IMG/VR virus record: IMGVR_UViG_3300042479_000397 | Span: 1-36,608 of that record | Origin: a virus | Reading direction: 5' to 3' (one strand) | Length of the DNA: 36,608 nucleotides | In this document: positions 6,737-31,249 of the stretch, in pieces | Layout of the letters: each line of letters starts with the position of its first letter | How positions within the stretch are numbered: the stretch's first letter is position 1 | Made by a program: the position numbers and the translations under genes | Notes under the pieces: generated by a model | What the model saw: the letters and a program-made list of their open reading frames with translations, nothing else | What the model was told of the DNA's origin: nothing | The model's database searches: none

Positions 6737-7768
6737 ATGACGCAAGTACTCGTTCGTAGCGGTAACTACCGCAAACAAACTGTTCGTGGTGTTACTTTTA
6801 CACTAGTTAAAGACTACACACAAGGCGCTCGAGGTGGCTTTGTGACAGTAGAAAGCAATGGCTACTTTGGCGCAGAACACAATGTGGTACGCATCAAAGT
6901 TGATAGCATTCAAGATATAGAAATTGTTGGAGATAACATGCCCAGTGTAAAAGAAACTAAGGTAGTAGAATTTAAACATACTGCTCCGGTGGAAACCGAA
7001 GAGCAAGCAATGGATCGTATTCGTGAGCGATTTGATATCCTGCACGACATGACCAAAGCCTGTGTCAGCGGCGATATCCGTGCTATGATTGTGAGCGGCC
7101 CACCCGGCGTAGGCAAAAGCTTTGGTGTGGAGCAAGAAATTGACAAGGCCTGCTTGTTTGACAAATTGGCTAGCAAACGACTTCGTGCCGAGGTAGTTAA
7201 AGGTAGTGCCACTCCAATTGGTTTGTATCAAACACTTTACAAATTTAGTGACGCCAATTGCGTAGTTGTTTTTGACGACTGTGACAGCATCTTGTTAGAT
7301 GACGTTGCTCTTAACTTGCTCAAGGGTGCCCTGGACTCCGGCAAGAAGCGTACTATTTCATGGCTGTCAGAGTCTAGTGCTTTGCGTCGTGAAGGTATCC
7401 CAGACCGTTTTGAGTTTAAAGGTAGTGTTATCTTTATTACAAACTTAAAGTTTGACCAAATGAAATCGCAAAAATTGCGGGATCACTTGGACGCATTGCA
7501 AAGTCGTTGCCACTATCTGGACTTGACCCTGGACACCATGCGTGACAAACTGTTGCGCATCAAACAGATTGCCAAAGATGGTGTGTTGTTTGCAGACTAC
7601 GACTTTAACGAGTATGCACAAGATGACATTATTGACTTTATGCATGTCAACAAAGAACGCCTGCGTGAGGTAAGTCTGCGTATGGCGCTGAAGATTGCAG
7701 ACTTGCGCAAGAGCTTTCCTAACAACTGGAAGCGCATGAGCGAGACAACATGTATGAAGAGTGCCTAA
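6737..7768 (+). CDS. AAA-family ATPase
   Basis: 343 residues. Walker A is G121-P-P-G-V-G-K127-S128 and Walker B is CVVVFDDCDSI; SVIFITNLKF is the sensor-1 strand with Asn, and the C-terminus has a helical region with REVSLRMALKIADL. Residues 1-80 form a separate basic, beta-rich N-terminal domain. The arrangement suits a remodelling or clamp-loader-type ATPase acting on a protein or DNA complex. It has two strong sigma70 promoters upstream and its own terminator downstream, so it is a single-gene unit probably read by host polymerase early in infection. I cannot name the substrate. Confidence 0.8.
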   Translation: MTQVLVRSGNYRKQTVRGVTFTLVKDYTQGARGGFVTVESNGYFGAEHNVVRIKVDSIQDIEIVGDNMPSVKETKVVEFKHTAPVETEEQAMDRIRERFDILHDMTKACVSGDIRAMIVSGPPGVGKSFGVEQEIDKACLFDKLASKRLRAEVVKGSATPIGLYQTLYKFSDANCVVVFDDCDSILLDDVALNLLKGALDSGKKRTISWLSESSALRREGIPDRFEFKGSVIFITNLKFDQMKSQKLRDHLDALQSRCHYLDLTLDTMRDKLLRIKQIAKDGVLFADYDFNEYAQDDIIDFMHVNKERLREVSLRMALKIADLRKSFPNNWKRMSETTCMKSA

Positions 7769-9076: not shown

Positions 9077-9618
9077 ACATTATTTGTTACACAGGAGGAA
9101 CTTGCGGTCATGTGTTAGCGGCCATAATAGATTCCACCAACTGCAAATTATCAAAAACAGCAGTTAGGATGCCTGCAGAAAGATGTCGTCTAAATAAACC
9201 TCACACCTTTTTAAATGATTTAGAAAAAACTCAGTATGTACAAAACATTAGTTTAGTGTATAATAGCTTACCCAGTCATGATTTAACCTATCATGTTAGT
9301 GCTGGTCAAGATTTTATTACTGTTACTGTAAATAAATTTGACACAGCATTGTGGGCCGCAGAAAGATTTAAACAGTTGCACAGACCAAATGTGTGGGAAG
9401 AGATGCAACAGTTTTGCGGTGCAAATGACGTTGCAGGATATGCAAAAACATTAATAGACTACTCTAATATGGTAAAGACACATACAAAAAAGATTGTTAC
9501 ACTTGAACGCATACTATCGGGGTATGCCGTTGAGGATCTTGCTAACTATGTAGAATCACCTGAACTGGATAATAACTTTTACCAAGAATGGCTGAAACTA
9601 CAAAACTATGCAGGCTAA
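9073..9618 (+). CDS. Phage protein of unknown function (GTG start)
   Basis: 181 residues. I chose the GTG at 9073 because it makes a GTGA overlap with the previous stop and has GGAG at 9061-9064, 8 bases upstream; a TTG at 9058 is the alternative. It begins with a hydrophobic strand and a glycine turn (NIICYTGGTCGHVLAAIID), which loosely resembles a phosphate-binding turn but is not a Walker A. The rest is mostly helical. The stop lies 11 bases inside uvsW. No function can be assigned. Confidence 0.6.
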   Translation: MNIICYTGGTCGHVLAAIIDSTNCKLSKTAVRMPAERCRLNKPHTFLNDLEKTQYVQNISLVYNSLPSHDLTYHVSAGQDFITVTVNKFDTALWAAERFKQLHRPNVWEEMQQFCGANDVAGYAKTLIDYSNMVKTHTKKIVTLERILSGYAVEDLANYVESPELDNNFYQEWLKLQNYAG

Positions 9619-11074
9619 ATTAATAATCAGAGACGAAGTAAATTTAAAGATTGAAGGACTTGATTTAACTGCTAGGCGTGCCTTAGTAAATAAATTCAAG
9701 TTTGATGTTCCTTATGCACGATATCTACCAGCGGTAAGACTGGGCAGATGGGATGGTAAGGTCAGCTTCTTCCAACTAGGTGGCAGTACCTATGTAAATC
9801 TACTGCCTGAGATCATTCCCATCCTAGAAGACTACAACTACGACATTGACGTAGAGGATTTGCGCGAATATCGTACCACCTTTGATTTTACGCTAGTCAA
9901 GGAAGATACCTTTGCTGAAACAAATTGGCCCAAGAATCATCCGATGGAAGGCCAACCAATTATGTTGCGTGACTATCAGGTAGAGATAGTCAACAACTTT
10001 TTACAAAACCCACAATGCATACAAGAAGTGGCCACAGGCGCAGGCAAGACAATTATGACTGCGGCTATGAGTTACAGCATACAACAATACGGACGTAGTA
10101 TTATCATTGTTCCCAACAAAGACCTAGTGAGACAAACAGAAAAAGATTACATTAATCTTGGACTTGACGTTGGAGTATATTTTGGAGACCGAAAAGAGTA
10201 TAACAAGACACACACAATCTGTACCTGGCAGAGTCTAAACAACATGATGAAGAACACCAAGTCCGGCGAAGCAGAAGTTAGCATTGGGGATTTCATTGAG
10301 GGTGTGGTGTGCGTTATTGTAGATGAAGTACACATGGCCAAAGCAGATGCACTAAAAACGTTGTTGACCAGTGTTATGTCTGAAGTGCCAATTCGGTGGG
10401 GATTAACCGGTACAGTTCCCAAGGAACGATTTGAATTTGAAGCATTGCATGTTAGCCTTGGACCAGTTATTAGTAAGTTGGCCGCCAGTGAATTGCAAGA
10501 CAGGGGTGTGCTGGCACAATGTCATGTGAACATTGTACAGCTAGTTGATCATGTTGAATACAGCAATTACCAAAGTGAGTTAAAATACCTACTAGAAGAA
10601 TCAGGCAGGCTAGATACAATTGCCAGCTTAGTTAAACAGGTCAACGAGACTGGTAACACATTGGTTCTGGTTGACCGTATCAGTGCAGGACAATCACTGG
10701 CCGATCGTCTTGGGGACAAAGCAGTATTTGTTTCGGGCGCAACCAAAGGTACAAAAAGGCAAGAACACTATGATGAAATTGCAGAATCAACAGGCAAAAT
10801 TATTGTTGCCACTTACGGGGTGGCGGCGGTTGGTATTAATATACCACGAATCTTTAACTTGGTGCTGATTGAGCCCGGAAAAAGTTTTGTAAGGGTTATC
10901 CAATCAATTGGTAGGGGCATTAGAAAAGCAGAAGATAAAGACCATGTTCAAATTTGGGACATAACCAGTACCTGCAAATTTGCAAAGCGGCACATGACCA
11001 AACGAAAACAGTTTTACAAAGAAGCCAACTACCCATTCTCTGCTGAAAAATTAGAATGGATGACCATCAAGTAA
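9608..11074 (+). CDS. uvsW: UvsW-like SF2 DNA/RNA helicase
   Basis: 488 residues, close to T4 UvsW (503). Residues 1-115 are the N-terminal DNA-binding region (ARYLPAVRLGRWDGKVSFF). Motif I is A142-T-G-A-G-K147-T148, motif II is VDEVH, motif III is GLTGT, and the second RecA lobe ends with motif VI QSIGRGIRKA. The helicase unwinds branched DNA and R-loops and in T4 drives the switch from origin-dependent to recombination-dependent replication and fork rescue. It is last in a run of overlapping genes, and a sigma70-like promoter begins right after its stop. Confidence 0.92.
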   Translation: MQAKLIIRDEVNLKIEGLDLTARRALVNKFKFDVPYARYLPAVRLGRWDGKVSFFQLGGSTYVNLLPEIIPILEDYNYDIDVEDLREYRTTFDFTLVKEDTFAETNWPKNHPMEGQPIMLRDYQVEIVNNFLQNPQCIQEVATGAGKTIMTAAMSYSIQQYGRSIIIVPNKDLVRQTEKDYINLGLDVGVYFGDRKEYNKTHTICTWQSLNNMMKNTKSGEAEVSIGDFIEGVVCVIVDEVHMAKADALKTLLTSVMSEVPIRWGLTGTVPKERFEFEALHVSLGPVISKLAASELQDRGVLAQCHVNIVQLVDHVEYSNYQSELKYLLEESGRLDTIASLVKQVNETGNTLVLVDRISAGQSLADRLGDKAVFVSGATKGTKRQEHYDEIAESTGKIIVATYGVAAVGINIPRIFNLVLIEPGKSFVRVIQSIGRGIRKAEDKDHVQIWDITSTCKFAKRHMTKRKQFYKEANYPFSAEKLEWMTIK

Positions 11075-12021: not shown

Positions 12022-12454
12022 ACTAAACATCAATAATGAAATGCGCCAGCTTGATACCAAGAATCGTAATTTCTATGATAGTTTAACTCCGGAAGAATTA
12101 AAAAAGTTCAGCAACTATCTTATGATACGTTGGGGTAGTAGTGTTGAGGATAGCAGTGAGATACAAGCATACTATGTGCGTAGTTGTAATCATTACTTAA
12201 ACAAACATTTTTTTGCTATAAACAAACATCCCAAACTTCAGTGGTTGTGTGCCACTGCTATTAGTCCTGACCTAGGAACACCACGACATCCTTGGATTGC
12301 TCCAAAGAAAAAAGAAGCAGGTGCTGGAAGTATTAAGAAGCAGTTGGCAGAATTATATCCAACCAAAAAAATGGACGAGATAGAATTGCTTAGTAAGTTA
12401 ATTACTAAAAAAGAACTAGATGAATACGTTAAAGATCACGGTCAGGAAAAATGA
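12011..12454 (+). CDS. Probable clamp-loader small subunit (gp62-like)
   Basis: 147 residues from the ATG at 12011. The central part (FSNYLMIRWGSSVEDSS, then YYVRSCNHYLNKHF, then HPKLQWLCATAIS) follows the gp62 pattern of T4-like phages, where a short V/I-R-x-x-S block precedes an N-rich helix and then L-Q-W/Y-x-x-L. gp62 is the single-copy subunit that works with gp44 ATPase to load the gp45 clamp. The match is by pattern only and identity to T4 gp62 is low; no gp44 gene is in the window. It ends with an ATGA overlap to the zinc-finger gene. Confidence 0.42.
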   Translation: MSDKLNINNEMRQLDTKNRNFYDSLTPEELKKFSNYLMIRWGSSVEDSSEIQAYYVRSCNHYLNKHFFAINKHPKLQWLCATAISPDLGTPRHPWIAPKKKEAGAGSIKKQLAELYPTKKMDEIELLSKLITKKELDEYVKDHGQEK

Positions 12455-13125
12455 CATACCAATGCCAGTATTGTAAAAAAGACTTTTCTAGAGAAAGTAG
12501 TTTGGCAGTACACGTCTGTGAACAAAAGAAACGTAGACAAGATCAGAATGAACGTGGAGTCCAACTGGGATTTCAAGCATATTTAAAATTCTACGAAGTC
12601 ACACAAGGGTCAGCTAAATTAAAAACATTTGATGACTTTGCTGATAGTTCGTATTATCGAGCATTTGCTAAGTTTGGCAGATACTGTGTAGATATTCGAG
12701 CAATCAATCCTGCAAGGTTCACCGAATGGGTGGTTAAACAAAATAAAAAACTTGATTATTGGTGCAAGGATACTATCTACACAGAATACCTGTTATGGTA
12801 TCTTAAAATTGAGTCTGTTAATGATGCATTGGCCAGGTCTATTGAACATAGTATTGACTGGGAAGAGAAGAATGGTCATGCATCAAAAGATTATCTAAGA
12901 TACGGTAACACTAATATAATTTGTCATGCAATTACTACTGGCAAGATCAGTCCCTGGGTAATTTACAACTGTGACAGTGGCCGGGAGTTCTTAAACGGAC
13001 TTGATGAAAAACAAATTGCAATGATATGGTCATACATTGACGCAGATGTATGGCAACAAAAATTTAAAGATTATATGGCAGATCAAGAATACGCCAAGGA
13101 CATTTTATCAAAGGCAGGATGGTAA
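12451..13125 (+). CDS. Zinc-finger phage protein of unknown function
   Basis: 224 residues. The N-terminus has a zinc-binding signature with C5-x2-C8-x12-H21-x1-C23, similar to C2H2 fingers but with a shortened H-to-C spacing, followed by a Lys/Arg-rich stretch. The remainder is helical and aromatic (AYLKFYEVTQGS, YYRAFAKFGRYC, YTEYLLWYLKIE). It overlaps the clamp-loader-like gene (ATGA) and is coupled to the DnaE-like gene by TAATG at 13123-13127. This placement suggests a DNA-binding partner for the replication proteins, which is inference only. Confidence 0.6.
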   Translation: MTYQCQYCKKDFSRESSLAVHVCEQKKRRQDQNERGVQLGFQAYLKFYEVTQGSAKLKTFDDFADSSYYRAFAKFGRYCVDIRAINPARFTEWVVKQNKKLDYWCKDTIYTEYLLWYLKIESVNDALARSIEHSIDWEEKNGHASKDYLRYGNTNIICHAITTGKISPWVIYNCDSGREFLNGLDEKQIAMIWSYIDADVWQQKFKDYMADQEYAKDILSKAGW

Positions 13126-13724
13126 TGAGCGCAGATATCGACATTGACTTTGCTGACAGAGAAACAGTATTAAAATTAGTAAAGCACATTCCTGCACGAC
13201 AATCAGTTAATGAACAAGTGCGTCGACACAACAGTGGTGTTTACGTTACTGATATTCCATTCGATCCAGTGAATCAGTGTGCTGCCATAGACTATGAAGA
13301 AGCCGAACAACGTGGTTACTTTAAGATAGACTTTTTAAACATGAGTGTTTATCAGTTGGTTAAAAGTCCTGAACATTATGATCAAATGATCAAAACTGCA
13401 CCTCCATGGACAAGACTATGGACAGATAACGCATGGGCTTCTCGGTTGGTACACGTCGGAAACTATACAGAATTGTTAAAGTCGATGCAACCAGATTCAA
13501 TAGCTAGGATGGCTGCGTTTATCAGTATTATTAGGCCAGGAAAAGCACACTTACAAAATAAAGATTGGAACACAGTCTTTGCTGGTGTGTGGGACGGAGA
13601 TGATAGTCGCGGGTACACGTTTAAAAAATCACATGCAATTAGCTATGCTGTGTTAGTTGCCCTACACATGAATTTGCTACACGAAGCAGATCAACTTGAA
13701 AAATTAATCAATCTTTCTGACTAG
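13125..13724 (+). CDS. Mini DnaE-like (C-family polymerase palm) protein
   Basis: 199 residues, against about 1,160 for bacterial DnaE. Conserved C-family blocks appear in the correct order: D4-I-D6-I-D8-F9 aligns with the E. coli DnaE catalytic block PDFDVDF (D401 and D403); HNSGVYVT (35-42) aligns with HAGGVVIA; YFKIDFLNM with D69 aligns with KFDFLGL (D555); VGNYTELLKSMQPDSIARM with IIRPGK (137-140) aligns with the MKDLIKRLQPD...FRPGP block; and FKKSHAISYA (166-175) aligns with FNKSHSAAYA. All three catalytic aspartates are present while PHP, most of the fingers, beta-binding and OB domains are absent. It could be a tiny polymerase or terminal transferase, or a repurposed fold. I chose the ATG at 13125 (TAATG with the previous gene). 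The last 21 bases overlap the convergent minus gene. Confidence 0.7.
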   Translation: MSADIDIDFADRETVLKLVKHIPARQSVNEQVRRHNSGVYVTDIPFDPVNQCAAIDYEEAEQRGYFKIDFLNMSVYQLVKSPEHYDQMIKTAPPWTRLWTDNAWASRLVHVGNYTELLKSMQPDSIARMAAFISIIRPGKAHLQNKDWNTVFAGVWDGDDSRGYTFKKSHAISYAVLVALHMNLLHEADQLEKLINLSD

Positions 13725-14081
13725 TGTAATTGATTTACGTTTACTTTTTCTGCGAGTGATATCACTTAAACTGCAAACAGGTCCGTGTAATATTTCAAGG
13801 TCTTTGTTGGCAAAAGTTCTTAAATATGGCTTAAATGGAGTCCACTCTGCTTTTAAGTATATGTTAATAGGTATACTGTGGTTACTTTCCCACCACCAAT
13901 CATTGGCCAACTCAATAAACAGCTTTTTTAGTTCAGGGTCAGTAACATCACCAAAGTCGTAGATTGTTGTAATCGCGTCATCTCGATTTTGTATAATTCC
14001 CACGTATTCCGTCCCTGCATACAAGCACAGAGTTATAAACGGATACTTTTCAGTCAATTTTGTAAAGATATTATCACCCAT
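13704..14081 (-). CDS. Phage protein of unknown function
   Basis: 125 residues from the ATG at 14081; a TTG at 14102 is possible but would run into the promoter of the divergent gene. It starts MGDNIFTKLTEKYPFITLCL and holds GTEYVGIIQNRDDAITTIYDFG, a Trp-rich NDWWWESNHSIPINIY and a basic C-terminus (TRRKSKRKSITLVRKID). It is an isolated minus-strand gene, tail to tail with the DnaE-like gene and divergent from the structural gene at 14103. No ribosome site is visible. The basic tail could bind nucleic acid; otherwise the function is unknown. Confidence 0.65.
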   Translation of the reverse strand: MGDNIFTKLTEKYPFITLCLYAGTEYVGIIQNRDDAITTIYDFGDVTDPELKKLFIELANDWWWESNHSIPINIYLKAEWTPFKPYLRTFANKDLEILHGPVCSLSDITRRKSKRKSITLVRKID

Positions 14082-14086
14082 AAATA
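14079..14086 (+). promoter_or_regulatory. T4-late-like promoter CATAAATA
   Basis: CATAAATA, 17 bases before the ATG at 14103, with GGAG at 14093-14096. It overlaps the start of the divergent minus gene, so use of one start may affect the other. Confidence 0.6.
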
Positions 14087-14102
14087 TTAGTTGGAGATCC
14101 AA

Positions 14103-14894: not shown

Positions 14895-15628
14895 AATTTA
14901 AAAAAATTGTTGGATTTGGGGACAGTTGGGTCTGGGGCGACGAGTTAATTGATCCAGAGTTGTTAAAACACAATTCTGATGCGCATCCAAGTCTAGTAGA
15001 GAATACGTCTTATCGTGAACGAAAATGCTTCCTGGGATTACTTGGTAGACATTATCAATTGCCCACAAAAAACTTTGGCATACCCGGCGGCAGTTTACAA
15101 AGCACCATGTGGACTTTTTTGTGGTGGTTACGCAACGAACCCAGTCCCGAAGAATGTATTGTTCTAGTAGGATTAACCGAAGGTAGTCGAATGAGTTTTT
15201 ATAACCCTAGTCATGAAACTTACCCTAATGCTCCTACGTGGGATAGATTTGTTCACAGTTCGTGGGTACATGCTGGAGTCCAAGACGGTGCTGTGACTCG
15301 CGAATGGACCGATATGATTAAACGATACATGGTACTGAGTGAAAGTGATCCATTGTCAATGCTAAACTACGAACAAGCGTTGTACTTTTTTGATGGTGTG
15401 GCAGCCAGAAGAAATCTACCAATGTTGATCTGGGACATAAGCCCGCCACAAGAAGAAATTACAGTTCCTTCTAAGATATTGCCAGGATTTAATTTTGTAC
15501 ATTGGCTACGACGACATCCAAACGAAATGGAATTAACGTTTCCGGGCGGCCACCCTAATGAAAACGGACACATAATACTGCGAGATATGTTGCAACAAGA
15601 GATAGATTGTGTTATAATGTCTAAGTGA
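14891..15628 (+). CDS. SGNH/GDSL-like hydrolase
   Basis: 245 residues. Block I is VGFGDSWVWG with Ser12 as candidate nucleophile, block II is GIPGGSLQST with its glycine, a LVGLTEGSRM segment stands where the G-x-N-D block is usual but lacks the Asn, and H221-P-N supplies the C-terminal catalytic His. Such enzymes de-acetylate or cleave esters in glycans; in phage they act on host capsule or cell wall, or on virion glycans. It overlaps the BppU-like gene (ATGA) and the primase gene (GTGA), so it bridges a structural and a replication gene. The missing block III Asn lowers certainty about activity. Confidence 0.75.
   Translation: MKFKKIVGFGDSWVWGDELIDPELLKHNSDAHPSLVENTSYRERKCFLGLLGRHYQLPTKNFGIPGGSLQSTMWTFLWWLRNEPSPEECIVLVGLTEGSRMSFYNPSHETYPNAPTWDRFVHSSWVHAGVQDGAVTREWTDMIKRYMVLSESDPLSMLNYEQALYFFDGVAARRNLPMLIWDISPPQEEITVPSKILPGFNFVHWLRRHPNEMELTFPGGHPNENGHIILRDMLQQEIDCVIMSK
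15590..15618 (+). promoter_or_regulatory. Sigma70-type promoter inside the hydrolase gene, for primase
   Basis: TTGCAA at 15590-15595, a 17-base spacer, and TATAAT at 15613-15618 preceded by TGT (extended -10). The predicted start is 15625, exactly the G of the primase GTG start codon, which implies a leaderless transcript. Confidence 0.6.
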
Positions 15629-16614
15629 TAGACATAATCAATTACCTGCCTGCTAAAAGAAAAACTAGTCCACAGGGCTGGACTAGTTTTAATGCTGTGT
15701 GTTGCACCCATAATGGTAACTCACAAGACAAACGTGGCCGAGGCGGCATCAAAGTCACCGACCAAGGTTGGAGTTACCACTGCTTCAATTGCGGCTACAC
15801 AGCTAGCTTTGTACTAGGGCGTACTTTAAGTTTTAAAGCCAAACGATTGCTAGGTTGGATGGGTGTGCCGGACAACGAGATTGAAATGCTCAATCTTGAA
15901 AGTCTAAGACATCGCAACATACACGGAATTTTAGAAGATAGACAACGAGTATCCAACACACTGAGCGCAATTGAGTTTGGTGAGTCCGATGACTTTCCGC
16001 CTTACGCAGAAGTAGTTACTCCAGAATTTCCAACATACTGGGACTACATCCGCCATCGCGGCGTGCCAGAAGATTTTCCTGTAATGACTTCTATCAAGAC
16101 TGATGGAGTTCATTGGACCAGACCGTATGTGTTGATACCGTTTACATACGACAACAAAGTAATAGGTTGGTGTGCTAGATTCTTAGATAACAAGATTCCC
16201 AAGTATATCAATCATAGCCAACCGGGCTATGTATTTGGCACAGACCTACAACATAATGACTGGCAGTATGTGATTGTTACAGAAGGTATATTTGATGCAC
16301 TAAGCATTAGCGGCCTTGCACTAATGCACAACACCATCAGCGACAGTCAAGCTAGACTGATACGTAGCTTGGGCAAGGAAGTAGTTGTGGTTCCGGACCA
16401 AGACACAGCAGGTGTAGAACTGATTGACCGTGCTGTAGAATTAGGATATAGTGTTAGTATACCTACATGGCCAGACGACTGTAAAGACGTTAATGATGCA
16501 GTGATAAAGTTGGGCAAGTTAGGAGCCTTGCTAACTATTATGCAAGCAAAAGAGACCAGTAAGATAAAAATTGAAATAAGGAAAAAGCAACTTGTTAAAA
16601 GATTACGGACTTGA
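15625..16614 (+). CDS. gp61: DNA primase, T4 gp61 type
   Basis: 329 residues, near the size of T4 gp61 (342). The N-terminus is a zinc-binding domain with C26, H29, C53 and C56 (motifs CCTH and CFNCG). The TOPRIM region follows: VIVTEGIFDAL carries the catalytic Glu, VVVPDQDTAG the Asp pair. It makes RNA primers for lagging-strand synthesis and acts with the helicase encoded next. The GTG at 15625 overlaps the previous stop (GTGA) and coincides with a predicted transcription start. The helicase gene overlaps its 3' end by 23 bases. Confidence 0.9.
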   Translation: MIDIINYLPAKRKTSPQGWTSFNAVCCTHNGNSQDKRGRGGIKVTDQGWSYHCFNCGYTASFVLGRTLSFKAKRLLGWMGVPDNEIEMLNLESLRHRNIHGILEDRQRVSNTLSAIEFGESDDFPPYAEVVTPEFPTYWDYIRHRGVPEDFPVMTSIKTDGVHWTRPYVLIPFTYDNKVIGWCARFLDNKIPKYINHSQPGYVFGTDLQHNDWQYVIVTEGIFDALSISGLALMHNTISDSQARLIRSLGKEVVVVPDQDTAGVELIDRAVELGYSVSIPTWPDDCKDVNDAVIKLGKLGALLTIMQAKETSKIKIEIRKKQLVKRLRT

Positions 16615-18034
16615 TGTCCAACGATTATTCCTAGAGATGATGTTAGAAGACGCATCGAGTTATGTGCGTGTTCAAAATATTTATAACCCAGCAAACTTTG
16701 ACAAGAGTTTGAGACCTGCGGCTGAGTTCATTAAAGAACACTCAGACAAGCACAAGACCATGCCAGACAGGCTGCAGATTTCAGCCACCACAGGCGTTAA
16801 ACTTGCACCAGTGCCGGACTTGAACGAAGGTCATTACGATTGGTTCATGGGCGAGTTTGAATTGTTTACTAAACGTCAGGAACTTGAACGTGCTATTCTT
16901 AAATCAGCAGACTTGTTAGAAAAAGGCGAGTTTGAACCAGTTGAGAAACTGATCAAAGATGCTGTGCAGATTAGTTTAACCAAAGACATGGGCACAGACT
17001 ACTTTGCTGATCCTGCGGCTCGCATCAACAAATACTTTAATTCAGGTGGACAAGTGTCAACAGGATGGCCACAACTGGACAAGTTGTTGTATGGTGGATT
17101 CAGTCGCGGTGAACTAAACATCTTTGCAGGTGGATCAGGATCTGGCAAATCACTTGTGATGATGAACATTGCATTAAACTGGTTGCAACAAGGTCTCAGT
17201 GGAGTATACATTACACTAGAACTTTCGGAAGAGCTTACTAGTTTAAGAACAGATGCTATGTTAACCAGCATGAGTACCAAAGACATCCGCAAAGACATTG
17301 ACACTACTACAATGAAGGTTCGCCTGGTCAGTAAAAAATCTGGTCAATATCGAGTCAAGGCATTGCCGGCACAGAGCAACATTAATGATATCCGCAGTTA
17401 TGTCAAAGAAGTGCAGATACAAACAGGTATCAAAATTGACTTTATGATGATTGACTATCTGGACTTGTTGATGCCTGTTAGTGCAAAGGTCAGTCCAAAC
17501 GATTTGTTTGTAAAAGACAAGTATGTGAGTGAAGAACTACGAAACTTGGCCAAAGAGCTAGGTATGTTAATGGTAACAGCGTCACAGTTGAATCGTAGTG
17601 CTGTGGAAGAAATTGAGTTTGATCACTCGCACATTTCAGGTGGTATTTCCAAGATTAATACTGCTGACAACGTGTTTGGTATCTTTACGTCACGTGCTAT
17701 GAAAGAGCGTGGCAAGTATCAGATCCAGTGTATGAAAAGTCGTAGTTCTACAGGCGTAGGACAAAAGATTGATTTGGAATACAACATTGAAACCATGCGT
17801 ATTACTGACCCAGGAGTGTCTGACAACGATAATTTCCGTGGCGGTGCAAAACCTAGTATCATGGACTCATTCAAAACAAAAAGTACAGTAACTGACAATA
17901 CGGCTGAAACCACATCATCAACTAAATGGGAAAGGCCTACAGGAACACCAGCATGGGAACAACCACCTAAGGTATCAGCTGATGTGCAAAGTGCCAAATT
18001 AAAACAACTGTTGGGACAAATTAAACAGTCATGA
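16592..18034 (+). CDS. gp41: Replicative DNA helicase, T4 gp41 / DnaB family
   Basis: 480 residues (T4 gp41 is 475). The N-terminus (LDVQRLFLEMML, YVRVQNIYNP, AAEFIKEH) matches gp41 proteins; Walker A is G180-G-S-G-S-G-K186-S187, Walker B is FMMIDYLDLL, and TASQLNRSA with HISGGISKI are the downstream DnaB motifs H3/H4. It unwinds the fork 5'-3' as a hexamer coupled to primase. I chose the TTG at 16592 because it keeps the conserved N-terminus (MLKDYGLDVQRLFLE) and has AAGG 11 bases upstream; the next ATG at 16637 would delete that block. Confidence 0.92.
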   Translation: MLKDYGLDVQRLFLEMMLEDASSYVRVQNIYNPANFDKSLRPAAEFIKEHSDKHKTMPDRLQISATTGVKLAPVPDLNEGHYDWFMGEFELFTKRQELERAILKSADLLEKGEFEPVEKLIKDAVQISLTKDMGTDYFADPAARINKYFNSGGQVSTGWPQLDKLLYGGFSRGELNIFAGGSGSGKSLVMMNIALNWLQQGLSGVYITLELSEELTSLRTDAMLTSMSTKDIRKDIDTTTMKVRLVSKKSGQYRVKALPAQSNINDIRSYVKEVQIQTGIKIDFMMIDYLDLLMPVSAKVSPNDLFVKDKYVSEELRNLAKELGMLMVTASQLNRSAVEEIEFDHSHISGGISKINTADNVFGIFTSRAMKERGKYQIQCMKSRSSTGVGQKIDLEYNIETMRITDPGVSDNDNFRGGAKPSIMDSFKTKSTVTDNTAETTSSTKWERPTGTPAWEQPPKVSADVQSAKLKQLLGQIKQS

Positions 18035-19167
18035 AATACTGCCCGGATGTTTGGAAAAGTTTATACATAGAGAAAAAATCTAAAAATACAATCGGTGTGG
18101 GATTTTGTTGTCAAAATCAGGTTGTTTACATTCCGGCCAATATAGAAGAGCTTCGCTCAACTATAGAAAAAAAACAACACGATTTTAAAAACAATTCAGA
18201 ACCGACGCAATGTAACAATTGCTGGAGAATTGAAAAAACTGGATCACCCAGTCGCAGGCATGCTTCGATTGATTGGTTTGATAATAATCAGATAGATAAT
18301 AATACCGACAACAAACTAATATCTCTAGATTGGAATAGTGAAAATGTTTGCAATCTTGCATGTATTTCCTGTGGCCCAAAGTATAGCAGTCGCTGGCGTC
18401 AAGAAATTTTAAATTATAGTTTTAACAACCTGTCGTCAGAAAAATATATTAACAATCTTAAAGATAATAAATTTTGGAAATCGTTAGATTTGCGCCATCT
18501 TAAAAGATTATATTTTAACGGAGGCGAACCGTTGATGAATTCTGATCACAAAGAAATATTGTCTCATCTAAGAGAGATAGGACAGTTATCAGAACTTGAG
18601 CTTTCTTATAATACCAACGGAACAATTATTCCCAACGACGAAGTATTAGATTATTGGAAAAATGTTGGACTACTGAGAATTTCTATTAGCATAGATGCAA
18701 CTACTCAAGCTTTTGATTTTATACGTTGGCCCGCCAAATGGGAGCAAATTTTAACTTTTATTGAATTTATAAATCAGCAATCATTTAATATCATTATTGA
18801 TATAACTTGCACAGTTGGCATCCACAATATTTTAGAAGTTGATAAATTAATTGCATGGCAAAAAACTAATTTATCAACCAATGCGCAAGGAGATCCAGTA
18901 GGTCTTAATTTTCAAATGGCTGGCCCAATCAGCCACGGTGGAACTGTACTAAAATTAAATACTATCAGTAAAAATCTTGCCACATGCATATTACCGCAAT
19001 TAATTGAAATAAAAAAATACGGCATCTGGTCAGCCATTGAGAATAGCTTATTAAATGCCAACGGTAATGACTTGTGGGTTGAGTACTTAGATGAACTGTC
19101 TGCTCGACGACATATTAACTGGAAAGATCAGTTACCAACATTGGCAGAATCATTGAGAATTTCTTAA
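18031..19167 (+). CDS. Radical SAM protein, twitch-type (first copy)
   Basis: 378 residues. The radical-SAM cluster motif is C107-x3-C111-x2-C114 (CNLACISC), with the GGEP motif at 164-167 and SISIDA later, the usual SAM-binding order. Extra N-terminal cysteines (C26, C27, and C61-N-N-C64-W) resemble the auxiliary Fe-S site seen in SPASM/twitch enzymes, here placed at the N-terminus. These enzymes modify peptides or proteins by radical chemistry. It overlaps the helicase stop (ATGA at 18031), so it can be read from the replication operon. It is convergent with a paralogue, with 4 bases between stops. Substrate unknown. Confidence 0.8.
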   Translation: MKYCPDVWKSLYIEKKSKNTIGVGFCCQNQVVYIPANIEELRSTIEKKQHDFKNNSEPTQCNNCWRIEKTGSPSRRHASIDWFDNNQIDNNTDNKLISLDWNSENVCNLACISCGPKYSSRWRQEILNYSFNNLSSEKYINNLKDNKFWKSLDLRHLKRLYFNGGEPLMNSDHKEILSHLREIGQLSELELSYNTNGTIIPNDEVLDYWKNVGLLRISISIDATTQAFDFIRWPAKWEQILTFIEFINQQSFNIIIDITCTVGIHNILEVDKLIAWQKTNLSTNAQGDPVGLNFQMAGPISHGGTVLKLNTISKNLATCILPQLIEIKKYGIWSAIENSLLNANGNDLWVEYLDELSARRHINWKDQLPTLAESLRIS

Positions 19168-19171
19168 ATTA

Positions 19172-20233
19172 TCAAAACAAATTAACAAGTTCTGGCAGAT
19201 AGTCTTTGATTAAGATATTCTTTGAAGAATCTTGTAATTTGATATTTTCCAACATTAAATTAAAATTTTGTTGGTCTTGGTCTGTGTGTACTGCCCCCAC
19301 AAACATGTTATAGTCCATTGGTCTGAGCTTTTCTTTAAGCACTTGTTTGATGTCTGCGGACAAGGCTCTCGGTTGTAACCATTTTGGATTATAAATTGGA
19401 TTTACAGAATATACTATATTATTTTGGTCAAACCATTTTTTTGTTTGGTTATGGTACAGCACATTCAAGTTACTTAATGTGTAATTTGAACTAACATTTT
19501 TTGAAATTTCTTTAAAGAATTGAAGATTTTGGTTCAGCTGGTCCCATTTCAATGGAAATCTGAGATACTCGAACACAGGTCCGACTCCGTCGATACTGAG
19601 AGAAAAATTAAGATTTTTAAATTTTGACAGTATTCTTTTTTGTTTATCTGACAGTACAACACTTCCGTTTGTTATCATACTTACAAATAGTTGATCGTTA
19701 CCTGTATCAATTAAATGTTCTAATAATTCGAAGTTTTTCTTTTCGTACAGCGGTTCACCACCTAGCAAACTTAGCATTTTTAATTCTTTAAAATCTACAT
19801 CTTGTTTGATTTTTTCTATGTCAATGAATTTGTATTTTTTAATTGGTATAGTTGGGTCTGTCTGACGATCGAGTTGTGCCCAACTACTACTGGCTCCGGC
19901 GCCACAGCTTACACAGGTAGCATTACAGGTGTAACTGGTTGTTAATTTTAGTATGCGGGTAGGAGTAATACCGTGTGTGGCATCTTGTATGATTTTTGTT
20001 AAGTCTTTATCCCAATAAAAATCTAAAGATTTGTTTTTAACCTGACGATCACTTTTTAAACCTTGATCTTCCAATGACCAGCATTTTTGACAAGCAGATG
20101 ATCTTTGACCAGATAATAAATCTTTTTTAATTTCTTCAAGATTGTGATTCTTGGGCAATAAACAACAGGGTGTTTTGTTATTGTTATAATCAATTTCTTT
20201 ACTAAACCACGGTAATACGCAAAATGTATCCAT
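19172..20233 (-). CDS. Radical SAM protein, twitch-type (second copy)
   Basis: 353 residues. C103-x3-C107-x2-C110 (CNATCVSC) binds the SAM cluster, LLGGEPLYEK provides GGEP, and LSIDGVG lies downstream. The N-terminus has C5, C23, C24 and C48-Q-K-C51-W, the same layout as the first copy, so they are diverged paralogues. A late-like GTAAATAC box sits a few bases upstream of the start and no Shine-Dalgarno is obvious, which suggests a leaderless late transcript. It depends on an Fe-S cluster, which fits the phage IscU and IscA. The product and target are not known. Confidence 0.8.
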   Translation of the reverse strand: MDTFCVLPWFSKEIDYNNNKTPCCLLPKNHNLEEIKKDLLSGQRSSACQKCWSLEDQGLKSDRQVKNKSLDFYWDKDLTKIIQDATHGITPTRILKLTTSYTCNATCVSCGAGASSSWAQLDRQTDPTIPIKKYKFIDIEKIKQDVDFKELKMLSLLGGEPLYEKKNFELLEHLIDTGNDQLFVSMITNGSVVLSDKQKRILSKFKNLNFSLSIDGVGPVFEYLRFPLKWDQLNQNLQFFKEISKNVSSNYTLSNLNVLYHNQTKKWFDQNNIVYSVNPIYNPKWLQPRALSADIKQVLKEKLRPMDYNMFVGAVHTDQDQQNFNLMLENIKLQDSSKNILIKDYLPELVNLF

Positions 20234-26889: not shown

Positions 26890-27005
26890 TAGAAAAATTA
26901 TTACAAAACAAGATCCTGTTAGTAACAACAGGATTATTGAGCACATACTTATTGTATAAGATAAGTTTAGAGCTATGGTGCATAGCCTACGGAATATTAA
27001 ATTAA
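26886..27005 (+). CDS. Tiny single-helix membrane protein (39 aa)
   Basis: 39 residues, MIEKLLQNKILLVTTGLLST, then YLLYKISLELWCIAYGILN. The start overlaps the upstream stop as ATGA (26886-26889), and the stop is 8 bases before the iscU ATG. The hydrophobic core suits one transmembrane helix. Its reading frame contains a perfect hairpin (26913-26934), so a regulatory RNA role for this stretch is the main alternative. It is too short to judge by coding statistics. Confidence 0.4.
   Translation: MIEKLLQNKILLVTTGLLSTYLLYKISLELWCIAYGILN
26913..26934 (+). other. 8-bp hairpin ahead of iscU
   Basis: ATCCTGTT (26913-26920) and AACAGGAT (26927-26934) form a perfect stem with a 6-base loop, about 80 bases before the iscU start. 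There is no T-tract, so it is not a terminator. Confidence 0.5.
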
Positions 27006-27013
27006 GAAATCAC

Positions 27014-27400
27014 ATGGCGTACTCAAACAAGGTAATTGATCACTATGAAAATCCCAGGAATGTCGGATCTTTTGACAAGGCTGATACTGATATTGGTACT
27101 GGTATGGTTGGCGCACCTGCTTGCGGTGACGTGATGAAACTACAGATAAAGGTTGATAATGATACAGGTATTATTACAGATGCAAAATTTAAAACGTATG
27201 GCTGCGGATCGGCTATTGCGAGTTCGAGCCTCGTTACAGAATGGGTCAAAGGCATGCACATCGACCAAGCCAGCCAACTCAAAAATTCCGAAATTGCCGA
27301 AGAACTAGCTCTGCCTCCTGTTAAGATTCACTGTAGTATTCTAGCTGAAGACGCAATCAAAGCGGCTGTGGAAGATTATAAAAAAAGACATGCTAGATGA
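27014..27400 (+). CDS. iscU: Fe-S cluster scaffold protein IscU
   Basis: 128 residues, the same length as E. coli IscU, with very high similarity throughout (MAYSNKVIDHYENPRNVGSF at the start). The three cluster-binding cysteines C37, C64 and C107 are present, as is D39. LPPVK (100-104) is the HscA chaperone recognition motif. IscU builds [2Fe-2S] clusters on sulfur from IscS and passes them on with HscA/HscB. I chose the ATG at 27014 because it matches the bacterial N-terminus. No iscS, hscA, hscB or fdx is in the window, so host proteins must supply them. It overlaps the oxygenase gene by ATGA (27397-27400). Confidence 0.95.
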   Translation: MAYSNKVIDHYENPRNVGSFDKADTDIGTGMVGAPACGDVMKLQIKVDNDTGIITDAKFKTYGCGSAIASSSLVTEWVKGMHIDQASQLKNSEIAEELALPPVKIHCSILAEDAIKAAVEDYKKRHAR

Positions 27401-27987
27401 TTTTAAGAAACATTCCAAATTTTTTAACAAAAGATGAATTAGATTTGGCCTGGGCAGAAATTACAAACAATCCAAAGTGGCAATATTCTAAGAGATGTTC
27501 TTTTGATAATAGTGTAACTAAAAATGTATGGCGTTATCGTGTGTTTTCTAGTTACTCAGGTAAAATATTACAATCAGACCCTAGCACATGGTTTGTAAAT
27601 CAGCCCAATTGGCAGTCAACTATATCTCCAATCTGGGTTACAATTCTAGATAAAGTTATGCAGGCATATGGCCCAAATTTTCAAATATTTAATTTTGTGA
27701 TTAACGGGCTAACAAAAGGACAGGATGATGTAATTCATAGAGACCTGGAAGATGATATTTCCAGCTACGAATCAACTGTGATTTATTTAAACCCAACTTG
27801 GGAAAAAAGCTGGGGTGGCCCATTACTCTATTACGACACTGAGTTAAATGTTACAGAAAGAATTTTACCCGAGCCGGGTCAGCTAGTTGGGCACAACGGC
27901 TCTTGCCTACACCAACCACTTGGCCCTGTGGTTGATGATATATTACGTGTTAGCTTTGCCTGCGGAGGTTATTTTAAAAATGATTAA
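27397..27987 (+). CDS. 2OG-Fe(II) oxygenase (prolyl-hydroxylase-like)
   Basis: 196 residues. The iron-binding triad is H114-x-D116 in VIHRDLEDD with the second His at H172 (CLHQPLGP), and R184 in LRVSFA is the usual 2-oxoglutarate binding Arg. GGPLLYYD and STVIYLNPTW are standard strands of this fold. These enzymes hydroxylate proteins, peptides or small molecules. It is inserted between iscU (ATGA overlap) and iscA (8-base overlap), an order not found in bacterial isc operons. The substrate is unknown. Confidence 0.8.
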   Translation: MILRNIPNFLTKDELDLAWAEITNNPKWQYSKRCSFDNSVTKNVWRYRVFSSYSGKILQSDPSTWFVNQPNWQSTISPIWVTILDKVMQAYGPNFQIFNFVINGLTKGQDDVIHRDLEDDISSYESTVIYLNPTWEKSWGGPLLYYDTELNVTERILPEPGQLVGHNGSCLHQPLGPVVDDILRVSFACGGYFKND

Positions 27988-28303
27988 TATATCTGATGAT
28001 GCTTCTCAAAAAATACAACAAGCACTAATCGGTCGAGGCAAAGGTCTAGGAATACGAATAAGCGTACACACCACTGGGTGTAGTGGATTAGCTTACCGTG
28101 TCGAATTCGTTGACAACCCACTGGATGATGTAGTAGACTATGAAGATCCAAGCGGTTTTAAAGTTTATGTTAGTCCAAAAGATATGCCTTATTTAAATGG
28201 ACTAACCATGGTATGGAAAAGCGATGGTCTCAAACAAGGCATGGATTTTATCAATCCCAATGAAAGAGATCGCTGTGGTTGTGGAGAAAGTTTCAGAGTG
28301 TAA
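27980..28303 (+). CDS. iscA: A-type Fe-S carrier protein IscA
   Basis: 107 residues, the same length as E. coli IscA, with C34, C99 and C101 in the canonical TGCSG and CGCG-E-S-F-x-V motifs. The C-terminal sequence (FINPNERDRCGCGESFRV) matches IscA rather than SufA or ErpA. A-type carriers accept clusters from IscU and deliver [4Fe-4S] units to apo-proteins. The ATG at 27980 gives the standard N-terminus; longer readings add an improbable extension. It is translationally coupled to the sulfotransferase-like gene by TAATG at 28301-28305. Confidence 0.93.
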   Translation: MINISDDASQKIQQALIGRGKGLGIRISVHTTGCSGLAYRVEFVDNPLDDVVDYEDPSGFKVYVSPKDMPYLNGLTMVWKSDGLKQGMDFINPNERDRCGCGESFRV

Positions 28304-28914: not shown

Positions 28915-29617
28915 CCGATACAACTACCAACCAATTCCTCGAGTTACTGTTGATGGTAAACGTTTTTATGCCACACCCGATGGCAAGAATCTTCCCAGTG
29001 TAACCACAATCTTAGACAAGACAAAACCACAAGAAAAAGTCGAAGCTCTAAATCGTTGGCGCCGAAGTGTAGGGGTAGAAAAAGCACAGCAGATCACCAC
29101 AGAAGCTGCCAATCGCGGCACTAGAATGCACACATATCTTGAACAGTATGTACGTGATGGCACCATCAAAGAACCTGGTTCAAATCCTTACTCTTGGCCC
29201 AGTCATGCCATGGCCAAGGTTGTTGTGGACAATGGTTTAAAAAATGTCAATGAGTTCTGGGGAATCGAAGTACCCTTGTACTTTCCCAGCATCTACGCAG
29301 GCACAACAGACGGCGCCGGCATACACTTGAACGAAGAAGCTATTTTAGATTACAAGCAAACCAACAAGCCCAAAAAGCGTGAATGGATTGACGACTATTT
29401 TGTGCAGTTGTGCGCTTATGCCGAAGCTCATAATGAAATACACGGCACAAAAATACGCAAGGGTGTGGTGCTTATGTGCGTCAAACCCGATCTTGACGAC
29501 CAATTCAATATCATTAAACCCCCAGAATACCAAGAGTTTGTGTTAGAAGGTGCAGAGTTTGACCGCTATCGAGATTTGTGGTGGCGCAAAGTAGAGCAAT
29601 TTTATCTACAACAGTAA
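28898..29617 (+). CDS. PD-(D/E)XK nuclease
   Basis: 239 residues from the ATG at 28898, which keeps a sensible N-terminus (MTKLINRYNYQPIPRVTVDG). The N-terminal half carries SVTTILDKTKP and RGTRMHTYLEQYV, the R-G-x-x-x-H helix of RecB-type exonucleases. IYAGTTDGAG and ILDYKQTN supply the D...D-x-K catalytic residues of the PD-(D/E)XK fold, and YFVQLCAYAEAH is the following Q-x-x-x-Y helix. It likely degrades or trims DNA in replication, recombination or packaging. It is separate from the structural gene at 29663 by 45 bases that contain a late box. Confidence 0.85.
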   Translation: MTKLINRYNYQPIPRVTVDGKRFYATPDGKNLPSVTTILDKTKPQEKVEALNRWRRSVGVEKAQQITTEAANRGTRMHTYLEQYVRDGTIKEPGSNPYSWPSHAMAKVVVDNGLKNVNEFWGIEVPLYFPSIYAGTTDGAGIHLNEEAILDYKQTNKPKKREWIDDYFVQLCAYAEAHNEIHGTKIRKGVVLMCVKPDLDDQFNIIKPPEYQEFVLEGAEFDRYRDLWWRKVEQFYLQQ

Positions 29618-29630
29618 GCCTGCGATCCTG

Positions 29631-29638
29631 AATAAATA
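29631..29638 (+). promoter_or_regulatory. T4-late-like promoter AATAAATA
   Basis: AATAAATA, 25 bases upstream of the tail spike ATG at 29663. Confidence 0.55.
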
Positions 29639-29662
29639 CTAGAACTAAACGGATCTCACAAC

Positions 29663-31249
29663 ATGGCTATAGTACAAGTATCAAGAATTACAAATCGGAA
29701 AGGTCTCCAGGAGAACCTTCCACAGCTTTCAGGAGCTGAATTCGGCTGGTGTATTGACAGTCGCCAACTTTTTATAGGCAACGGAACACCCGACGAAGGT
29801 GCCCCGGTCATCGGCAACACTGAAATTTTAACAGAATTCTCAGACATCACTGTTTTAAGTAATTACACTTATCAAGATATTGCTGTAGGGTATGCCGCAC
29901 AGACTGGACCAACCCCCGACGATCCAACCATTAGAACGCTTCAGGCCAAGCTTGATGACATTGCTGACGTACGGGATTTTGGCGCAAAAGGCGACGGCGC
30001 CGCTGATGATACAGAAGCTATTAATCGAGCATTGTTCCAACTTTATTGTAGAGACACCAATAGCCAAATACGTCGAACTTTGTATTTTCCTGCCGGAACA
30101 TATAGAATTACAGAATCACTGATTATTCCAACCTACGCAAAACTAGTTGGCGAAGGTGCCAACTGTTCTATTATTCAACTTGATATCTCTACTGATTTAA
30201 GTAGCTTATCTGCTTACGTTGCACGTTACGGTGATAGTCAGCAACAAACCGGTGCAAACATTGGAAACAACGGAGCAGTTGCTCCTCGCAACATTGAAAT
30301 TTCTTCAATGACTTTTGAAAGTTCAGTGGTAACAGATATTTTCAATGTTGAAGATGCAACACAATGTTGGTTTGATAGTGTTAACTTTATTGGACCATTG
30401 TCAGACACTGACATTAGCACAAACCAAAGTCTTGATGATATTGCCGGCGTAAGATTTTACAGTACTACCAATTTAGTTTGCAATCAAATAGTATTTGATA
30501 AATGTCAATTCCAAGGCCTAACATATGGTATGAACACAGATTATCAAATCTCAGGTATAACAGTTAGCAACAGTAAGTTTGACACACTCTATAGGGGTAT
30601 TGTGCTTGGAGAAGGAACACCTATCAATGGAGGTCCTACGGGCTTCCGTGCCGTACACAATATATTTGATAGAATCTATGCCGAAGGCATATATTATGAC
30701 GAAGTCGGATTAAACGTTAGTGCATATAATGCATTCTTAGATGTTGGTAACAATTACACAACTAGTCCAGCTTGCTCAGTTGTTAAATTTGGCAATGACA
30801 ATAATATTTCAGTCAGTGATTTGTTTGCAAGAACAGATGCTGACAACAACATCTACCCACGGATAGACATCATTGGCGGGTCAGTGGATACTACTACATT
30901 GATTCAGCTGGGTAGATATGCCAGAGAATCAGGAAAAACTTTTACGCTAGGTAATAATCAGTCCAACCAAACAATTTTTAGTGTCAATTCAATTGACACC
31001 AAGGCTTTTAGATTTGATTATACTATCTCTCGTTCTAGTTCGATTAGACACGGCACAATGATTGTTACTGCACAGATCAGCGATGACAGTAGTTTAACAT
31101 TATCCTACAGTGATGACTACACTGAAAACTTAACTGCTGGTGTCACGCTTTCTGCAACACAGGTAGTTAATACTGTGTCTGTAAAATACACCACAACCAA
31201 CACCGGGGATCCCGGAACACTAACTTATTCTATTGCTCACCTTGCTTAA
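29663..31249 (+). CDS. Tail spike/fibre with pectate-lyase-fold domain
   Basis: 528 residues. The N-terminus (VQVSRITNRKGLQENLPQLS, then GAEFGWCIDSRQLFIGNGTP) is a domain found at the start of many phage fibre proteins that fixes them to the virion. From about residue 103 DVRDFGAKGDGAADDTEAIN is the entry to a right-handed beta-helix of the Pectate_lyase_3 type, with FPAGTYRITESLI and repeated short strands after it. The C-terminal part (450-528) is beta-rich. Function: host recognition and probably cleavage of surface polysaccharide. It comes after a late promoter. Confidence 0.82.
   Translation: MAIVQVSRITNRKGLQENLPQLSGAEFGWCIDSRQLFIGNGTPDEGAPVIGNTEILTEFSDITVLSNYTYQDIAVGYAAQTGPTPDDPTIRTLQAKLDDIADVRDFGAKGDGAADDTEAINRALFQLYCRDTNSQIRRTLYFPAGTYRITESLIIPTYAKLVGEGANCSIIQLDISTDLSSLSAYVARYGDSQQQTGANIGNNGAVAPRNIEISSMTFESSVVTDIFNVEDATQCWFDSVNFIGPLSDTDISTNQSLDDIAGVRFYSTTNLVCNQIVFDKCQFQGLTYGMNTDYQISGITVSNSKFDTLYRGIVLGEGTPINGGPTGFRAVHNIFDRIYAEGIYYDEVGLNVSAYNAFLDVGNNYTTSPACSVVKFGNDNNISVSDLFARTDADNNIYPRIDIIGGSVDTTTLIQLGRYARESGKTFTLGNNQSNQTIFSVNSIDTKAFRFDYTISRSSSIRHGTMIVTAQISDDSSLTLSYSDDYTENLTAGVTLSATQVVNTVSVKYTTTNTGDPGTLTYSIAHLA

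Follow-up and report, generated by a model that had tools for sequence, protein, structure and literature searches.

The locus at positions 13125..13724 (+) of the window, the whole 36,608-nucleotide stretch of viral DNA analysed here (IMG/VR record IMGVR_UViG_3300042479_000397), raises the question of what a 199-residue protein bearing the motifs of a DnaE palm could be: a polymerase, part of one, or something else. The evidence set out below makes it quite likely that this protein, hereafter the C-piece, is the C-terminal subunit of the split minimal C-family polymerase of jumbo phages and serves as one chain of a two-chain accessory enzyme. The start of the reading frame (13125) overlaps the stop of the preceding gene, and an in-frame ATG at 13119 is an alternative start that would give 201 residues. 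The DnaE motifs follow one another in the order and at the positions claimed in an earlier note on this DNA. DIDIDF occupies residues 4-9, and the D4-I-D6-I-D8 codons (13134..13148, +) correspond to D401, D403, and D405 of E. coli DnaE, of which the first two are catalytic; the numbers D401 and D403 are those we take to apply to the E. coli enzyme, in which P400, D403, D405, and D555 are listed as invariant. HNSGVYV begins at H35 (codon 13227..13229, +), KIDFL contains K67 and D69 (K67-I-D69 codons 13323..13331, +), IIRPGK ends at K140 (R137-P-G-K140 codons 13533..13544, +), and FKKSHAISYA spans residues 166-175 (13620..13649, +), resembling the DnaE motif FNKSHSAAYA. Where palm, thumb, fingers, and PHP begin and end in E. 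coli DnaE, and which motifs correspond beyond the output of hhalign and VIA-align, is taken as background here.

Profile searches, which the earlier note had proposed as a check, return DnaE. Searched as a single protein, the C-piece matches the family phrog_11778, annotated 'DNA polymerase', at E=3.8e-55 over residues 3-187, and the DnaE family phrog_405 at E=7.4e-8 in three short stretches. A profile built from the window protein and four relatives scored 96.7% (E=4e-10) in hhalign against a DnaE profile of the E. coli protein and three phage full-length DnaE sequences, aligning H35, K67, D69, and R137-P138 with E. coli H511, K553, D555 (making D69 the third catalytic aspartate), and R639-P640 of the fingers. 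A larger C-piece set (44 sequences, 37 used) scored 96.8%, and the family of the upstream neighbour, an unrelated but syntenic control, scored 0.2% against the same DnaE profile. Matches to individual domain models were faint: the Pfam finger domain of Pol III alpha gave E=0.073, under the cut-off, and the NCBIfam Pol III alpha model E=0.034, far under it. A search with the single C-piece protein matched no DnaE among PDB sequences, and a five-sequence profile reached PDB Pol III alpha at E=0.0057 only.

The predicted fold agrees with this assignment. An AlphaFold2 model of the C-piece computed from a 44-row alignment (pLDDT 91.2, pTM 0.80) has strands at residues 5-9 and 68-72, in the regions of the aspartates, and, in the structural comparison likewise suggested earlier, it superposes best on DnaE and PolC. 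In VIA-align the model matched Thermus 3e0d_A with Z 9.5 (190 residues, 4.0 A) and PolC 3f2b_A with Z 9.4; the match to residues 399-814 of E. coli 2hnh had Z 7.8 (189 residues, 4.1 A), a value in the range under 8 where, the program warns, a common arrangement may be responsible. The 14 best rows were all Pol III alpha or PolC (188-197 residues), with Z values of 6.0-9.5 that in part fall under the same warning, and the first row outside the C family had Z 3.2. The first 13 Foldseek rows were also Pol III alpha or PolC enzymes (best E=8.7e-4). As modelled, the C-piece has the fold of the C-terminal half of the palm with part of the fingers, and its superposition on DnaE agrees with the placing together of D4, D6, and D69 that the earlier note had required of the fold. 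BFVD contains a 374-residue viral protein, A0A249Y020, with a predicted fold similar to that of the C-piece (Foldseek E=4e-3) and of a size that would be right for a minimal polymerase in one chain or for a piece of DnaE.

The PHP domain, thumb, full fingers, and C-terminal domains are absent from the 199-residue chain. The earlier note had seen that most of DnaE is lost; it overlooked that the thumb is gone too, together with the N-terminal half of the palm and its GRGS block. Because this block is not on the same chain, we class the C-piece as half of a split relative and not as a DnaE. In relatives of the window's phage the GRGS block is encoded by a separate gene. In the complete jumbo phages Phosso, PA5oct, Atu_ph07, and GAP32, phrog_405 detects, distant from the C-piece, a second small gene that matches profile positions 361-437, and it detects no full-length DnaE in any of the four; in Phosso there is, besides both pieces, one further match of 27 residues (E=0.01). 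The products of these partner genes, the N-pieces, are 169-177 residues long in the four phages, and their C-terminal ends consist of E-F-L and one or two further residues, so that they stop just where the C-piece begins; in PA5oct the C-piece is gp264 and the N-piece gp196. The same end recurs in 82 of 92 distinct N sequences, which terminate one residue past EFL, with 6 more ending within 2-7 residues of it and 4 lacking EFL. In PHROGs the two halves are separate families, phrog_11778 for the C half and phrog_11127 for the N half, both named 'DNA polymerase'.

The closest C-piece among the matches listed, 93% identical to that of the window, comes from a 345,154-base IMG/VR record (G001) that also carries a B-family polymerase. 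This record is collinear with the window; of 12.6 kb compared, 9.5 kb align at a nucleotide identity of 91.5%. Its C-piece lies at about 124.75-125.33 kb and its N-piece gene, of 174 residues, some 95 kb away (match at 29214-29693, -). No N-piece was found within the 36.6-kb window, where the phrog_405 matches are to the C-piece only. Given the identity of the C-pieces, the collinearity, and the distance of the N-piece in G001, the window very probably represents one part of a G001-like genome, with the N-piece gene in another part. The two records differ in places: G001 has an extra 354-residue gene at the junction of primase and helicase (L028 9485-10549) that is missing from the window (16605-16611), and the radical SAM gene at 18031-19167 of the window is missing from the corresponding place in G001.

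The N-piece of G001 scores 32.2 bits with Pfam PF07733, whose cut-off is 23.9, and this family is matched by 38 of 38 N-pieces at E<=0.01. Its model (pLDDT 84.9) superposes through residues 74-174 on residues 277-393 of E. coli DnaE (2hnh; Z 10.3, 98 residues, 2.4 A), and the match to 5lew reaches Z 12.0 in VIA-align; Foldseek alone was weak here (best E=0.052). The two chains cover complementary parts of DnaE, 277-393 for the N-piece and 399-814 for the C-piece, and these ranges abut without overlap. The first ~70 residues of the N-piece (L228 3001-3219) are modelled with partly lower confidence and are hardly covered by structure matches, and the NCBIfam matches to the Phosso N-piece begin at residue 37.

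The two halves also occur together. A search of 50,697 phage records, a homologue search of the kind the earlier note had called for, found the C-piece in 63 (E<=1e-10, the accessions of 3 being taken from other searches) and the N-piece in 60, counts that include RefSeq duplicates. The window's C-piece is at most 44% identical to those of isolates. When the threshold was relaxed to E<=10, the C-piece matched 88 phage records, the inspected extras being full-length DnaE or chance, and the Phosso N-piece at E<=1 matched 528. By tblastn, all 60 N-bearing phage records hold the C-piece and 60 of the 63 C-bearing records hold the N-piece. The three with C only are the 109-kb PP728206 and two 141-kb Alishewanella phages, one of which has an N-piece by profile search, bringing the total to at least 61 of 63. 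The matches to the two halves lie 14.6-223.9 kb apart in the 60 records (median 33.8 kb, linear coordinates).

Pairing is looser among the IMG/VR records. Of those found through the N-piece, 8 of 14 hold a C-piece (14 of 80 loci being covered), as does 1 of 5 in a second set (5 of 15 loci), which leaves ten N-only records (6/14 + 4/5) with sizes that include 543, 359, 277, and 262 kb; a repeat search of the six from the first set, the largest of 543 kb, with phrog_11778 gave no C-piece. The 262-kb record and G001, in which a C-piece is present, have identical N-pieces, and the N-only records may be fragments. Conversely, 1 of 7 records found through the C-piece (7 of 80 loci being covered) holds an N-piece, the six without it being 42-95 kb long. 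Such records are often fragments, and their pattern of co-occurrence is neither proof nor disproof of an obligate pair. The C-piece family extends to at least 579 confirmed stretches from environmental viruses, and among 72,556 plasmid records neither half was matched (thresholds E<=1e-5 for the N-piece and E<=1e-3 for the C-piece).

These distributions bear on whether the C-piece works by itself. The earlier note had proposed a minimal C-family palm, and a palm piece with its aspartates is indeed present; self-sufficiency is the part that fails, the GRGS half being encoded by a distant gene in relatives. A stand-alone minimal enzyme might be envisaged, since the C-piece model is confident by itself, the three aspartates are present, and some large records with one half show no other. 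We nevertheless regard it as barely credible that the C-piece acts alone, given that the palm half with GRGS is absent from it, that a separate gene supplies this half in nearly all C-bearing phage records, and that the N-piece model superposes on the missing part.

Conservation was examined in sequences drawn from 268 scanned loci. Among 118 distinct C sequences, D4, D6, D8, H35, K67, and D69 are present in all 118, so that the three catalytic aspartates named in the earlier note (D4 and D6 from sequence and structural alignment, D69 from hhalign) are kept throughout, and R137, P138, K140, F166, and H170 are found in every one of the 115 sequences long enough to include that region. The 92 distinct N sequences are likewise invariant at R105, E109, G140, G142, R143, G144, S145, and S149. 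The invariance of D4-D8 and of GRGS is partly selected, because the search patterns for many loci included the DIDID or GRGS block, whereas H35, K67, D69, R105, and E109 lie outside the patterns used for collecting loci. The C-piece gave a dN/dS of 0.13 against its nearest relative, dS against the other six relatives being near or past saturation. By these comparisons, the C-piece gene is under selection and is not debris.

The earlier note had also considered a decoy for host Pol III, in which the C-piece would act as a dominant-negative palm fragment devoid of catalysis. A phage-encoded fragment of a host type of enzyme would lend itself to such a role. The idea fits badly with invariant catalytic residues, those outside the search patterns (D69, K67, and H35 in 118/118) included, and with the purifying selection indicated by dN/dS; moreover, the surfaces through which Pol III makes its contacts are the PHP and the tau- and clamp-binding parts, which are absent from the C-piece. 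We therefore consider an inhibitor of this kind very unlikely.

The preferred reading, a two-chain enzyme, requires that the halves come together. In the phage of the window, an N-terminal subunit of ~175 residues, carrying GRGS and ending at E-F-L before the catalytic DxD, would be supplied by another gene outside the window. The two chains would join non-covalently into one nucleotidyltransferase palm, to which the N-piece would contribute the GRGS block and the C-piece the metal-binding aspartates and a short part of the fingers, and the assembled pair would carry out two-metal nucleotidyl transfer. Non-covalent assembly is favoured since the sequences at the break appear to leave too little space for intein halves, with translation starts as read from sequence only: 111 of 115 C sequences with DxDI have a Met 2-18 residues before D4 (69 of them at 3), and 4 have none. 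The pair would presumably be a slow accessory polymerase of low processivity, because it has no thumb, PHP, OB, or clamp-binding parts and little of the fingers; the loss of fingers and thumb could even cost it polymerase activity.

The C-piece gene is embedded in a replication cluster. The upstream gene (12451..13125, +), which overlaps the C-piece start, encodes a C2H2 zinc finger and matches phrog_11058, in keeping with the zinc-finger neighbour noted earlier; five other jumbo or large phages have relatives of it upstream of their C-piece, and phrog_11058 is matched by 5 of 6 members of this family. We considered the upstream product as a helicase loader resembling T4 gp59 and rejected it (weak PHROG match, E=0.0046; hhalign against T4 gp59, 0.05%). 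Downstream is a small convergent gene (13704..14102, -) with a profile match to phrog_11637, and the layouts of five other phages have a small reverse gene at the same place. The cluster continues with a Toprim DNA primase (15625..16614, +) and a DnaB-like replicative helicase (16592..18034, +), and a UvsW-like DNA helicase (9608..11074, +) lies upstream. The order zinc-finger gene, C-piece, reverse gene, primase, and DnaB is also found, with variations, in Phosso, PA5oct, Atu_ph07, GAP32, and Slicko01. The neighbour at 6737-7768, which had been described as clamp-loader-like, encodes an AAA+ protein of phrog_1250, a family of unknown function, and matches clamp loaders only weakly. Near the N-piece, Atu_ph07 and GAP32 have a clamp-loader gene, and Phosso has a gene for an AAA-ATPase.

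Elsewhere in the window, 18031-19164 and 19175-20233 (-) encode adjacent radical SAM proteins on opposite strands, and 26975-28300 encodes in a row a NifU/IscU-like scaffold, a 2OG-Fe(II) oxygenase-like protein (just under the cut-off), and an A-type iron-sulphur biosynthesis protein.

The relatives possess another polymerase. A B-family polymerase scores above the Pfam cut-off in all four named phages, whose genomes range from 287 to 490 kb, and is present in 13 of 15 IMG/VR records, missing only from one of 191 kb and one of 141 kb; an A-family polymerase (PF00476) was found in none of the four named phages. The split enzyme is therefore a second polymerase in these relatives and looks accessory. 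Its most likely job would be short gap filling or repair, or the finishing of lagging strands, alongside the phage B-family polymerase; taken alone, the assignment to gap filling or repair has a little under an even chance of being right. A DnaQ-like proofreading partner was considered as a constant companion and rejected as a general feature: among 12 records, 3 have PF00929 above the cut-off, and it is found in neither the window nor G001. Matches to the B-family polymerase are divided between two separate open frames in Atu_ph07 (W03 212336-213688; 418 + 578 residues), PA5oct (W02 217618-221395; 825 + 379 residues), and the IMG/VR record G010 (381447-390099; 572 + 549 residues), and in these three the B-family enzyme may be split or interrupted too.

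The presence of a B-family enzyme that already covers templated synthesis could also be taken to mean that the N- and C-pieces form an active nucleotidyltransferase that is not template-directed, such as the terminal transferase that the earlier note had listed, or a tailing transferase, working on the ends of DNA or RNA, all the more so as the retained core is essentially a nucleotidyltransferase palm from which the thumb and most of the fingers have been lost. Against this, the sequence and fold matches are to DnaE and PolC, and no nucleotidyltransferase family other than the C family appeared among the VIA-align rows for either model. The fingers residues R137, P138, F166, and H170 are retained in every sequence that reaches them, the C-piece sits beside primase and helicase genes, and the N-piece is near a clamp-loader gene in two of the four named phages. 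We thus view a transferase as unlikely and continue to favour an accessory polymerase.

A break at the same place is found in phages of Bacteroidota. Tenacibaculum phage Larrie and Cellulophaga phage phi19:2, of the phiST group, divide a full-length DnaE between two neighbouring genes, and the break falls in the same loop as in the jumbo-phage pair, with FERFLN before PDID. Unlike that pair, the phi19:2 and Larrie enzymes have full-length domains, adjacent genes, and an N-fragment tail of ~56 residues, whereas most jumbo-phage N-pieces end right after EFL without a tail of this type. An N-fragment is also present in Bacteroides phage BS-TP1 and in record MT835494, where a simple pattern search of the fetched stretch found no C-fragment. 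The four split loci (L271 3146-6726; L273 2998-6598; L274 2803-4536; L275 2764-4545) belong to three named phages and one faecal record. Across the Bacteroidota phages the N-fragment tails measure ~55-95 residues and two C-fragments have a short leader; by eye, these tails and leaders may recall worn intein (Hint) or docking strands, and a Pfam search of Larrie's two proteins found no intein. DnaE is unbroken in Chryseobacterium phage MA9V-3 and in record OR844993. We infer that the Bacteroidota breaks arose separately from the jumbo-phage break, and recurrence at the same loop makes two-chain working there more plausible. A search of open-licence literature showed no description of the Bacteroidota split; one paper mentions the phiST dnaE gene, and no split is stated there (PMC8008677).

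If the pair is active, it would show the minimum of a bacterial replicase that is needed for DNA synthesis, with an active site assembled from two chains; it would help to trace the origin of Pol III from a small nucleotidyltransferase, and it would explain why phages that own a B-family polymerase keep a second, bacterial-type polymerase core. At its most ambitious, the proposal is that N and C together form the smallest natural C-family polymerase, ~375 residues in two non-covalent chains split at the catalytic loop, copying DNA without thumb, PHP, or most of the fingers for gap repair beside the B-family replicase, and that this loop has been cut more than once in phage evolution; we advance this combined version tentatively and rate it as somewhat more likely wrong than right. 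Environmental viruses carry many members of the C-piece family, so that a testable function would also be gained for a gene that annotations often call 'hypothetical'.

The enzyme can be compared with several known systems. Like bacterial DnaE and PolC, the C-piece has the catalytic aspartates, the counterparts of H511 and K553, the RP pair, a motif resembling FNKSH, and the fold of the C-terminal half of the palm; unlike them, it has no PHP, thumb, most of the fingers, HhH, OB, or clamp-binding parts, and the palm is broken into two genes. The split DnaE of cyanobacteria is likewise encoded by two distant genes, whose products are joined by a split intein, but it is broken elsewhere and no intein is seen here. 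A family X polymerase of a virus, presumably African swine fever virus, provides a functional analogy. Viral Pol X is described as reduced to the nucleotidyltransferase fold and fingers and is linked to genome stability (PMC11646218); it is a minimal viral nucleotidyltransferase polymerase as well, though of the X family and a single chain, and by analogy it is a precedent for a minimal viral polymerase.

The closest counterpart is the minimal Pol III alpha that group 2.2 jumbo phages, Atu_ph07 among them, encode in two pieces; its description places the N- and C-terminal halves in distant genes alongside a B-family polymerase (Iyer et al., 2021; PMC7824862). The suggestion in the earlier note of a 'new' minimal polymerase had thus been anticipated in 2021. 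Before that, genome papers had noted a truncated 172-residue Pol III alpha in CBB (PMC5259590) and, in Atu_ph07, gp316, predicted to be Pol III alpha (PMC6102473); both are N-pieces in the present analysis. The term 'polymerase III' is absent from the text of a 2026 review (PMC13282480), and no experimental or biochemical study of the pair was found in the open-licence literature, which omits most subscription papers and preprints. Our pair fits the enzyme of Iyer et al. through that description and the phage Atu_ph07, in which both halves were found here, rather than through accessions; unlike the described pair, the window record holds the C-half only. The C-piece of the window is accordingly one more of the already described split enzymes, with a predicted function.
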